From NCBI GenBank assembly GCA_002171615.1, contig NHEF01000010.1, forward strand, positions 1 through 64,000: a stretch of DNA of 64,000 nucleotides. The letters are read 5' to 3'. This DNA comes from Gammaproteobacteria bacterium TMED78. Lineage in GTDB: Bacteria; Pseudomonadota; Gammaproteobacteria; Steroidobacterales; Rariloculaceae. The notes below the pieces were generated by a model. The model searched no databases. It was given only the letters and a program-made list of their open reading frames with translations, and was not told where the DNA came from. This document shows positions 1,031-4,899 of the stretch, piece by piece. The number at the start of each line of letters is the position of its first letter. The first letter of the stretch is position 1. Position numbers and translations under genes: made by a program.

Positions 1031-1720
1031 TTAAGATGTAATAAGAGTTTGAAATAATTCAGTATCAACTTTCTCTCTTTCAAGAAAATATTTTTTATAC
1101 TGATCAGTATTATTGGCCCTATTTTCAACCACATCAGAAAATAAACCGATCATACCAATAAATAATTCAGAAACTTCCCTCAAGCCTTGGCTTGCTCCAC
1201 TGTTAGCAGAGACATAATCACAATATTCTTTTTGTATAATAAATCTCTCGAATAATGGGCTCGAATCTTTTCTCATCAAGAAGCGAACACCGCACTCTTT
1301 TACCATGCCAACATCATTAATATCATCAAAAAAGCAGGCTATATTTTTCTTATCAATATTATAAGCAAGGCGAATTTTATTTATTACTAAGGACTTATTT
1401 TTCACTCCTGAGTATATAGAATTAAAATGTTCCCGCTTTGCAAAATTCTCTGCTAAAGAATTTTTCTCTCCAGTAACTATAATCGCTCTTGGTAATCTTT
1501 TATTTTTCAACCAAAGAGCAAACCTAAGCATATTGATGCCCATTGCATCAGATTCATTAAAGCCATTACCTTCATCCAGAGATTTAATACCGGAATTAAA
1601 AACACCATCCCAGTCAAAAATTAGAGTATTTATACATTCAAGGTTTTTTATAAGAACTGAAAATTCAGTTATAAACTTTCCACCTAAATCTTCAAAATTT
1701 TCCCTTATATTCTCAGACAT
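1031..1720 (-). CDS. KdsC-like HAD phosphatase (putative KDO-8-phosphate phosphatase), with extended termini
   Basis: HAD motif I FDWDGVFNSG and motif IV FDDINDVGM; downstream of kdsA on the same strand. Confidence 0.7.
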   Translation of the reverse strand: MSENIRENFEDLGGKFITEFSVLIKNLECINTLIFDWDGVFNSGIKSLDEGNGFNESDAMGINMLRFALWLKNKRLPRAIIVTGEKNSLAENFAKREHFNSIYSGVKNKSLVINKIRLAYNIDKKNIACFFDDINDVGMVKECGVRFLMRKDSSPLFERFIIQKEYCDYVSANSGASQGLREVSELFIGMIGLFSDVVENRANNTDQYKKYFLEREKVDTELFQTLITS

Positions 1721-1729
1721 AAGATATTA

Positions 1730-2767
1730 TCAAAGATAATCTTGGCCAAGCAGCCCTAGTTTAATAAGATCCTGAACATCTAGTATCCCCTCTGGAACAC
1801 CATTCCTTTCAACAATGATACTATCAACCTCGGACTCAGAAAAAAGTTTTACTGCCTCTTCTAAGTTAGCGTCACAATTTATAACTATTGGTGATTTAGA
1901 AAATCCTATTTTAATAAGTAGGTCCTCAAGTGTTGATTTTTCATTAGTTTGAAAATATCGCCTAATATCTCCATCAGTAAAAATACCTAGAATTTTATTT
2001 TTGTTATCAACCACGGTCACTGCCCCAAGTCGTGACTCAGTCATTTTGTTCATAGCAGATCTTAATGAATCATTTTGGCTACAAGTTGGATTATTTTTTC
2101 TAATCAAATCAGAAACTTTAACTGTTATCAGTTGGGTATGTTCTTTAAATTGCTCTGTTCCAATTAGACTTAGAGAGTTATCACAAAGATTTTTCATTAC
2201 CTTATATGGGACGGTACATACATGCACTCCCGCTAATATTGCCTGTCTGATATGCTCAGGATAGCGTACGGAAGAGAACATGACCTTACTAGAAAACCCA
2301 TACTTATCAATCATCTCTACACATTGCTCATATAGCTGTATTGCATCATGACCTTGGTCTTGAAGCCTTCCTGCCAATGGACAAACAAATGCCGCACCTG
2401 CTGCCATTGCCATATAAGCTTGATTAAGGGTATAAATCAGATGGATGTTAACTTTATGTCCCTTTTCAGTAAGCCTCTGGCAAGCAGTTACACCTTCATT
2501 TGAAATAGGAATCTTGAAAACAGGTTCATTTTTTAGCGGTAATGAAAGAATCCTATCTGCTTCACTTAAAATATCTTCAACAGACTCTCCTAAAGCCTCT
2601 ACCTGTAACTCAGGAACCATTCCTGATAGTTTAACAATAGCTCCATCAATATCTGTTATACCTTGTCTATGCATAAAAGTGGGAGTAGTGGTTAATCCTT
2701 TGATAAAGCCAAAATTTAATGCTTTCTCAATTTCATCAAAGTCTACTGAGTCTAAATATAATTCCAT
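1730..2767 (-). CDS. Fructose-6-phosphate aldolase/transaldolase-type domain fused to a KdsD-like CBS pair
   Basis: N-terminus MELYLDSVDF...GLTTTPT...FKIPISNEG matches FSA/TalC with Lys85 retained; C-terminus GIFTDGDIRRYF...GILDVQDLIKLGLL resembles the KdsD CBS pair. Confidence 0.88.
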   Translation of the reverse strand: MELYLDSVDFDEIEKALNFGFIKGLTTTPTFMHRQGITDIDGAIVKLSGMVPELQVEALGESVEDILSEADRILSLPLKNEPVFKIPISNEGVTACQRLTEKGHKVNIHLIYTLNQAYMAMAAGAAFVCPLAGRLQDQGHDAIQLYEQCVEMIDKYGFSSKVMFSSVRYPEHIRQAILAGVHVCTVPYKVMKNLCDNSLSLIGTEQFKEHTQLITVKVSDLIRKNNPTCSQNDSLRSAMNKMTESRLGAVTVVDNKNKILGIFTDGDIRRYFQTNEKSTLEDLLIKIGFSKSPIVINCDANLEEAVKLFSESEVDSIIVERNGVPEGILDVQDLIKLGLLGQDYL

Positions 2768-2779
2768 CTTCTTATCTTC

Positions 2780-3625
2780 CTAAATTGTTTTAGTTAACTG
2801 ATCACGAACTAAAGCATGAATATCTAGTAATGGTTTAACAAACTCTGAAAGATCATCCAAATAATACTGGCTTGCTGCATCACATAAAGCATCTGGTGGA
2901 TTAGGATGGGCTTCTATAAAAATTCCATCTACGCCAGCTGCTACACCTGCTCTTGATAAAACTGATAAGTACTCCCTGCTTCCTCCTTTTGGGTCCTTAC
3001 TAGGTATGCCATACTTTCTAATTGTATGGGTAATATCAAAAATCACAGGGTATCCTATCTGATTCAACAAAAGAAAGCTCCTAGGATCAACTACTAGATC
3101 ATTGTAACCAAAAGTATAGCCTCTCTCTGTAAGTAAAATTTTCTTACTACCTGAATCTTCAATCTTCTTAACAGGTTTTACCATATTATCTGGGGCAATA
3201 AACTGCCCATGTTTCAAATTCACAACTGCATTAGTTTTTGCAGCAGAAATAACCAACTCACTCTGCATACACAAATAAGCAGGTATTTGAAGAATATCAA
3301 CAACCTGAGATGCCGGAAATGCTTGATCCGGATAGTGAATATCCGTCAATAGGGGCAAATCAAATTCTTTTTTAATTTTTTCTAGCAATCTTAGACCCTC
3401 TTCTAATCCAGGGCCTTGGAAATAATCAAGCGAGCTTCTATTGTCTTTAGAAAATGATGATTTAAATATCAGAGGTATATTTAAGCTTGTCGCTATGTTT
3501 TTAATTTTTTCAGCAGTTTTTAGCATCATTGATTCCTCTTCAATGACGCAAGGTCCACAAATTAAAAAAAGTTGATCTGAGCCACAATCAATATCACCTA
3601 CCTGAACATGATTTTTTTTTATCAC
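2780..3625 (-). CDS. kdsA: 3-deoxy-8-phosphooctulonate synthase, metal-dependent type predicted
   Basis: LICGPCVIEEE, FKSSFSKDNRSS, GPGLEEG, IFDITHTIRK, GIFIEAHPNP. Confidence 0.95.
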   Translation of the reverse strand: MIKKNHVQVGDIDCGSDQLFLICGPCVIEEESMMLKTAEKIKNIATSLNIPLIFKSSFSKDNRSSLDYFQGPGLEEGLRLLEKIKKEFDLPLLTDIHYPDQAFPASQVVDILQIPAYLCMQSELVISAAKTNAVVNLKHGQFIAPDNMVKPVKKIEDSGSKKILLTERGYTFGYNDLVVDPRSFLLLNQIGYPVIFDITHTIRKYGIPSKDPKGGSREYLSVLSRAGVAAGVDGIFIEAHPNPPDALCDAASQYYLDDLSEFVKPLLDIHALVRDQLTKTI

Positions 3626-4899
3626 AATAAATTCATTCCTTTTAATATCCTAAAATTAGCTTGTGAGGCTCCCTGCCCTTCTAAAACCACTTCTTTAGCT
3701 CTTTTCCCTGAATCTAGACGAAGTTTATCGTCATTTACTAATCTGGTAAAAGCTTTTTTCAGGCTCTTTACATCATATACTTTATATCCTCCTCCTGCAT
3801 CAATCAAATTATTACCAACTTCTTCAAAGCTATAATTATGTGGGCCAAAAATAACGGGTATCCCTAGAATGGCTGGCTCCATTAAATTATGCCCTCCTTT
3901 GTCTCGAGACCTGTAATGTAAAGCACCTCCAACAAAAGCTATGTCTGATATACCATAAAAATCCCTAAGCTCTCCTAAGGTATCAAGAATTAGTATTTTT
4001 TTATCCCCTAATGCTTTAGATACTCCCCCCATTTTAGTTCTCCTTATTGAGGTAAAATTATAGCCTTTAATTTTACTCTCTATACTTTTAGAATCCTTAG
4101 GATACCTGGGTGCAATAACTGCTCTTACATTTTCTTGGCTCATAGCTAATTCGCTTAATGAATCTAGGAAAAGATCTACTTCTTCTAGATGAATACTTCC
4201 AGCAATAATTACTAAGTTATTCTTTGAATAATTAAGCTGATCTCTGATATCTATACTTTTATTTATTAAATCATCAATCAAATCATATTTCATATCACCA
4301 GTAATACTTATTCTTTCCTTATCTACCCCTAAATTAATTAGGCGATTTTTATAGCTATTTTTTTGAACACAAAAATAAGAAATGTTCCTCAAGAGAGGAA
4401 GTAATAAATAAGTCTTTATAATTTTACTTAATGATTGTTCTGAAATTTTTCCATTAACAACGAAAACTGGGATTTTTTTTCTACTAAGTGAATATAAAAA
4501 ATTAGGCCAGAAATCAGACTCAGCTAATATAACTAATCTAGGCTTTAAATTCTTGATGAAAAAATTAACAATGAAAGATAAATCAAAAGGGAAAAAAATG
4601 ATATGACAATCAGGATAATTTTTATAAGCAAGCTCGAGTCCCGACGATGAGCATACACTAATAATTATTTCTTCAGAGGAATCATTTTTTTTTATTAGGT
4701 CAACTAATTTTTTTAAAGAAATAATTTCTCCAGCTGATGCTCCATGCAACCAAATAGAAGAGCTATTTATTGGCTTTAAATTATAGCCGAACCTATAAAA
4801 TACCCTATAGAAATCACCTCTTAGTAATAATCTATAAATTAACCAAGGCGAGGTAATTATAATCAGAAAAAAATAAATTAAATTAAATACTAGTCCCAT
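3622..4899 (-). CDS. waaA: 3-deoxy-D-manno-octulosonic acid transferase
   Basis: WLHGASAGE, SSGLELA, VFVVNGKIS, AFVGGALHYRSRDKGGHNLMEPA; 4-bp overlap with kdsA. Confidence 0.93.
   Translation of the reverse strand: MGLVFNLIYFFLIIITSPWLIYRLLLRGDFYRVFYRFGYNLKPINSSSIWLHGASAGEIISLKKLVDLIKKNDSSEEIIISVCSSSGLELAYKNYPDCHIIFFPFDLSFIVNFFIKNLKPRLVILAESDFWPNFLYSLSRKKIPVFVVNGKISEQSLSKIIKTYLLLPLLRNISYFCVQKNSYKNRLINLGVDKERISITGDMKYDLIDDLINKSIDIRDQLNYSKNNLVIIAGSIHLEEVDLFLDSLSELAMSQENVRAVIAPRYPKDSKSIESKIKGYNFTSIRRTKMGGVSKALGDKKILILDTLGELRDFYGISDIAFVGGALHYRSRDKGGHNLMEPAILGIPVIFGPHNYSFEEVGNNLIDAGGGYKVYDVKSLKKAFTRLVNDDKLRLDSGKRAKEVVLEGQGASQANFRILKGMNLL

Follow-up and report, generated by a model that had tools for sequence, protein, structure and literature searches.

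A transaldolase-type barrel fused to a KdsD-type CBS pair, a candidate alternative source of arabinose 5-phosphate for Kdo synthesis

A Kdo operon encoding a barrel-CBS fusion

The 64,000-nucleotide stretch of the genome of Gammaproteobacteria bacterium TMED78 that was analysed here (the window) contains a Kdo operon on the minus strand, comprising waaA (Kdo transferase, 3622..4899; PF04413, 6.6e-45, and PRK05749 models), a gene here called kdsA' for a divergent class-II-type Kdo-8-phosphate synthase (2780..3625; TIGR01362, with a KDNRSS/LCMQ signature), a gene for a transaldolase/FSA barrel fused to a CBS pair (1730..2767), and a gene for a KdsC-like phosphatase of the HAD family (1031..1720). 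The waaA gene lies upstream of kdsA' and overlaps it by 4 bp, kdsA' lies upstream of the fusion gene with a gap of 12 bp, and the phosphatase gene begins 9 bp downstream of the fusion stop codon. The phosphatase falls below the cut-off of the KdsC model TIGR01670 (1.9e-12, 47 bits against a cut-off of 107 bits), and KdsC is still its best named relative.

The fusion is an ATG-started reading frame of 345 codons on the minus strand, beginning MELYLD, in which a TAL_FSA barrel (residues 3-209, 2141..2761; PF00923, 3e-33, and Foldseek) is followed by two CBS copies of the KpsF/KdsD type (residues 218-340, 1748..2116; Pfam CBS, 1.1e-20). A frame artefact or chance ORF is ruled out by conservation of the frame at 64-72% identity in an alignment with 15 relatives and by the existence of at least 559 related loci. 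A preliminary description made from the sequence alone had recognised an aldolase-CBS fusion after kdsA and had placed the Schiff-base lysine at residue 85, within FKIP and with the same number as in FSA; the reading frame is real, and K85 is invariant in 68 fusions. The AlphaFold check that it proposed was carried out with AF2 and the 68 sequences, giving a model with a mean pLDDT of 91.8 and a pTM of 0.69, the relative placement of the domains being less sure. Pfam and NCBIfam models find no SIS domain in the protein, and the earlier statement that the SIS domain has been replaced by an aldolase holds as a description of the architecture, a TAL_FSA barrel standing where KdsD has its SIS domain.

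The CBS pair closely tracks that of KdsD, as had been noticed from the sequence: among all NCBIfam CBS matches to it, the KpsF/KdsD models TIGR00393 and NF008141 rank first, the TIGR00393 match being confined to positions 154-257 (the CBS part); with the full-length fusion as query, the top match is the CBS region of KdsD in 37 of 37 genomes of the same order that lack the fusion (coordinates compared by eye); and the best CBS match in the PDB for a profile of the 68 fusions is 4o9k, an arabinose 5-phosphate isomerase (87 bits). Because the CBS pair is of the KdsD type and its best structural match is a CMP-Kdo complex, feedback by CMP-Kdo through the CBS pair of the fusion is likely by analogy.

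Complementary distribution of the fusion and KdsD

KdsD normally supplies arabinose 5-phosphate (A5P) to KdsA. Searching the window with KdsD picks up one ORF only, that of the fusion, through its CBS region, in agreement with the earlier remark that the window holds no other kdsD, and the whole-genome search that had been recommended (PF01380 in the 1.57-Mb, 98.8%-complete genome) found no SIS-type KdsD, the sole SIS protein being a double-SIS ORF of 613 aa with a GlmS-like layout.

Scanning one genome per species identified at least 559 loci that encode the fusion, the best 80 of which belong to Gammaproteobacteria, Desulfobacterota (some of these loci carrying Deltaproteobacteria titles), Candidatus Scalindua (Planctomycetota) and Bacteroidota. 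Thermoflexibacter ruber, Thermonema rossianum, Raineya orbicola and Flexithrix dorotheae are cultured carriers. The fusion is present in 18 of 22 genomes of the bacterium's own family (Rariloculaceae) and in 5 of 299 sampled Bacteroidota genomes; no true fusion was found in the plasmid collection, where the best full-length match has 25% identity.

KdsD is absent from 57 of 66 fusion genomes checked and present in 72 of 73 non-fusion genomes (Fisher p 4e-28, for species that are not independent and include many incomplete MAGs). The former total is made up of 18 genomes of the own family (15 without KdsD), 44 from other groups (38 without KdsD) and 4 further Bacteroidota; all five fusion-bearing Bacteroidota of the sample lack KdsD, one of them (G088) being already among the 44. 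The latter consists of the 4 fusion-less genomes of the family (all with KdsD), 37 genomes from other families of the order (all with KdsD and none with the fusion) and 32 KdsA-positive Bacteroidota (31 with KdsD). By hand comparison of a 48-genome Bacteroidota subsample, 31 of the 37 KdsA-positive genomes have KdsD but not the fusion, 5 have the fusion but not KdsD, 1 has neither and none combines the two, and the other 11, which have no KdsA, have neither KdsD nor the fusion. The KdsA-positive genome with neither (G125) perhaps has another A5P source or represents a miss. Fusion and KdsD occur together in 9 of the 66 fusion genomes, 8 of which possess a second, canonical KdsA. The idea of a capsule-type duplicate set in these genomes was rejected, the module being flanked, on inspection by eye, by hem-like and other housekeeping genes and not by capsule genes.

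The gene neighbourhood is recurrent. Among the 80 best loci, a relative of KdsA adjoins the fusion on the same strand in 55 and an HAD phosphatase does so in 51, the usual order being KdsA'-fusion-HAD. This module is often accompanied by KdsB and WaaA, as in several Desulfobacterota loci with the order WaaA-KdsB-KdsA'-fusion-HAD, and sometimes by KdnA and KdnB; further neighbours elsewhere are Kdo kinase, Kdo2-lipid A acyltransferase, a heptosyltransferase and LptB. KdsB is single and canonical, with an ordinary score. KdnB-like genes occur near the module in loci L177, L178, L275 and L302, and KdnA-like genes also in L177 and L302, the order in L302 (genome G193) being KdnA-KdnB-KdsA'-fusion-HAD-KdsB; these are presumably KdnA and KdnB, judging by gene order, matches to Fe-ADH and LegC-type aminotransferases, and the Shewanella pathway. 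The KdnB of Shewanella is a 3-deoxy-alpha-D-manno-octulosonate 8-oxidase (PMC5125639), and Kdo8N synthesis probably extends well beyond that genus.

A distinct KdsA clade and a remodelled active site

The KdsA' proteins of fusion genomes form one distinct clade with 100/100 support; that such a clade travels with the fusion had escaped the preliminary description. KdsA' resembles the Aquifex-type KdsA as a class-II-like Kdo8P synthase that keeps all four metal ligands, and differs from it in belonging to a separate clade with a signature of KDNRS for KANRS and LCMQ for LCRQ, that is, A to D and R to M at the acceptor site. The signature was read on a subset of the genomes, the rest being assigned by score; KDNRS, with K, N, R and S kept, is found in the window's own KdsA', and pattern scoring of KdsA' loci likewise gave it in 21 of 21. 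The window protein scores 318 bits with the TIGR01362 equivalog model, above its cut-off of 314 bits, and KdsA' matches Kdo8P synthase structures with up to 248 bits, against 84 bits for DAHP synthase.

A KdsA of the KdsA' kind is present in all fusion genomes examined, although in two of them it is represented by fragments only. G097, with KdsD, the fusion and KdsA' only, is an exception to the pairing of sets, as are the five genomes that follow. Two Candidatus Scalindua genomes (G074 and G078; L260, L261) and the genomes G003 and G014 possess a canonical KdsA, KdsA' and the fusion, with no KdsD found, so that the fusion would have to feed the canonical KdsA, which suggests that it may do so. 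A contig of another genome (G353:C1; L290, L297, L298) has the order KdnA-KdnB-KdsA'-HAD-KdsB, unlike that of G193 in having no fusion between KdsA' and the HAD phosphatase, and KdsD was not found in the 1.6 Mb scanned of its 7.03 Mb; this genome offers a natural experiment on the feeding of KdsA' by another A5P source. The trees of KdsA' and of the fusion both nest the same Desulfobacterota group inside the Bacteroidota, partly on submitter labels, as joint transfer of the whole module would predict.

The best Foldseek matches of the barrel are transaldolases of the TalC type (TMt 0.91-0.94, 28-30% identity), headed by TM0295 (1vpx, TMt 0.91). Compared with three solved transaldolases (1vpx, 3r8r and 1wx0) and the TalC of its own genome, the fusion has D6, T26, E57, K85, N107, R134, S166 and R168 invariant in all 68 sequences, and N28T, T109H, S129C (T in 6), F131L and A165S in all or nearly all of them. 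Thus it is like the TalC/MipB-type transaldolases (TM0295 and the Bacillus subtilis protein, 3r8r) in fold, in about 29% identity and in keeping K85, D6, E57, N107, R134, S166 and R168, and unlike them in T28, H109, C129, L131, S165 and the added CBS pair. With FsaA and FsaB of E. coli it shares the fold and the number of the Schiff-base lysine; unlike the fusion, FSA has no CBS pair, and its Q59, T109 and Y131 are E57, H109 and L131 in the fusion, E57 and L131 being invariant where FSA has its hallmark residues, Q59 and Y131. The score of the fusion is 142.3 bits against a cut-off of 245.95 bits in TIGR00875, and 81 against 306 bits in PRK12653. The conserved changes N28T, T109H, S/A129C and F/Y131L set the fusion apart from ordinary FSA and ordinary TAL alike.

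In the transaldolase family, S129 and its neighbours hold the C1-hydroxymethyl group of the dihydroxyacetone moiety, and the catalytic water of FSA and TAL is held by T109 together with residues 59 and 131. Because residues 28, 109, 129 and 131 are remodelled, the changes point to an altered proton transfer and to a substrate lacking that hydroxymethyl group, which may be glycolaldehyde or another aldehyde, or else an aldose phosphate.

Proposed function in Kdo synthesis

The fusion probably supplies A5P to KdsA' in place of KdsD, a reading that draws on its architecture, its operon, the absence of KdsD, the complementary distribution, the KdsD-type CBS pair and the conserved active-site changes, and from which we infer the product A5P, the Schiff base on K85, the donor and the CBS ligand. 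That the end product would be Kdo is argued by the single canonical KdsB and by WaaA, Kdo kinase, Kdo2-lipid A acyltransferase and KdnA/KdnB nearby. The fusion resembles KdsD/KpsF/GutQ (SIS domain plus CBS pair) in its type of CBS pair, its slot between kdsA and kdsC, its proposed product and its presence as a single copy where KdsD is missing, and differs in having a transaldolase barrel and no SIS domain as its catalytic part.

In the proposed mechanism, the fusion would be the A5P source of an alternative Kdo module, KdsA'-fusion-KdsC-like phosphatase, that feeds KdsB and WaaA and may be joined in some genomes by KdnB and KdnA for Kdo8N. Lys85 would form a Schiff base with an aldehyde donor, the C1 pocket of T28, H109, C129 and L131 would fit the enamine of a glycolaldehyde-type aldehyde rather than dihydroxyacetone, the transaldolase-type R134 and R168 would bind the substrate by its phosphate end, and aldol joining of the enamine to glyceraldehyde-3-phosphate would yield A5P, to be condensed with PEP by KdsA'. 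By sensing an end product of the Kdo pathway, most likely CMP-Kdo, the CBS pair may throttle the first step.

Glycolaldehyde supply is the weak point of this mechanism, no source being known that would cover the needs of the Kdo pathway. If the fusion does supply A5P, the joining of free glycolaldehyde to glyceraldehyde-3-phosphate may be its reaction, at somewhat less than even chances, R5P C2-epimerisation through the same enamine, its chief chemical rival, is possible with a somewhat lower probability, and Ru5P isomerisation seems rather unlikely. FsaA and FsaB form A5P from glycolaldehyde and GAP in vitro (PMC6298115). The preliminary description had proposed a different A5P route that keeps the CBS module, by an FSA-like reaction; the Kdo operon, the lack of KdsD, the KdsD-type CBS pair and the near-exclusivity with KdsD speak for such a route, which is the best reading. 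The reaction itself cannot be read off from homology, since E57, H109, C129 and L131 stand where FSA has Q59, T109, A129 and Y131.

The route from pentose phosphates deserves consideration as an explanation in its own right, although it is on balance unlikely: A5P might be made by R5P C2-epimerisation via an imine or enamine on Lys85 (with His109 as acid/base, or by retro-aldol cleavage followed by re-addition to the opposite face), or by Ru5P/A5P isomerisation with Glu57 and His109 as acid/base. The genomic evidence is the same as for A5P made from glycolaldehyde, R5P and Ru5P are ordinary metabolites, and, since A5P and R5P are C2 epimers, epimerisation avoids the problem of glycolaldehyde supply; moreover, proton transfer looks re-engineered, with an invariant His109 in place of T109 and a leucine at 131 instead of Tyr or Phe. 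Yet the invariance of D6, K85, E57, R134 and R168 is more than a proton shuttle needs, and we know of no epimerase or isomerase in the transaldolase family. Still more remote, to the point of being very unlikely, is an ordinary transaldolase or FSA that lies in a Kdo operon by chance, with a CBS pair sensing an adenine nucleotide or similar and A5P coming from an unrecognised enzyme. The barrel is clearly TAL/FSA, but four active-site positions depart conservedly from TAL, the distribution is complementary with that of KdsD over four phyla, and a separate plain TalC-type transaldolase is encoded in the same genome (contig 17), as also in the fusion genomes G088, G193 and G293. A housekeeping transaldolase was rejected as the identity of the fusion, given this separate TalC.

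Against A5P supply itself stand the absence of the FSA hallmark residues from the barrel and the occurrence of KdsA' without the fusion in G353, and 8 of the 9 genomes with both systems keep the canonical KdsA as well as KdsA', as though neither set could stand in for the other. The invariant acceptor-site changes of the separate KdsA' clade, and its near-constant pairing with the fusion, could mean an acceptor other than A5P, in which case the fusion would make another aldose phosphate for KdsA' to condense with PEP, leading to a Kdo analogue. This seems improbable: KdsA' keeps K, N, R, S and the metal ligands and is far closer in score to Kdo8P than to DAHP synthases, KdsB is ordinary, Kdo kinase, Kdo2-lipid A acyltransferase and KdnB (the Kdo 8-oxidase) are neighbours, and a canonical KdsA occurs without detected KdsD in Candidatus Scalindua (G074, G078) and in G003 and G014.

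Returning to the fusion as a supplier of A5P, we lean towards regarding it as a new A5P route in which a class I aldolase barrel with a KdsD-type CBS pair would catalyse the first step of Kdo synthesis, perhaps by R5P C2-epimerisation, which would be a reaction new for the family, and would have spread with the KdsA' clade through at least four phyla. Fold, regulator and pathway are known; their combination is new, and the catalytic assignment is probably new. The preliminary description did not know this fusion as a described enzyme, and a description of it was not found in the open-access literature either, though one may exist behind a subscription; the one paper found to contain all of transaldolase, kdsA and "CBS domain" (PMC2650404) mentions them separately, not as a fusion.

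Nearly all Gram-negative outer membranes contain Kdo, and KdsD is taken as the only dedicated source of its precursor A5P. The fusion would be a second, unrelated solution to A5P supply in Bacteroidota, Desulfobacterota, Planctomycetota and Gammaproteobacteria, and would account for Kdo synthesis in genomes lacking KdsD. It would also be a case of a regulatory domain retained while the catalytic domain was exchanged and a ready-made A5P-forming catalyst for glycolaldehyde assimilation, and organisms bearing it would be missed by KdsD inhibitors.

A minor observation concerns WaaA. The usual operon in the Rariloculaceae is WaaA-KdsA'-fusion-HAD-WaaA. Only one WaaA is present in the genome studied here (3622-4899) and in G005, both of which are small and lack the other WaaA-like gene that is usual in the operon of the family. 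In most fusion-only genomes of the family WaaA1 and WaaA2 are separate genes flanking the module, and in its one genus that keeps KdsD the two units form a single frame of 870-887 aa (G008:C44, G012:C86, G018:C97, G019:C34, G020:C42 and G021:C36).
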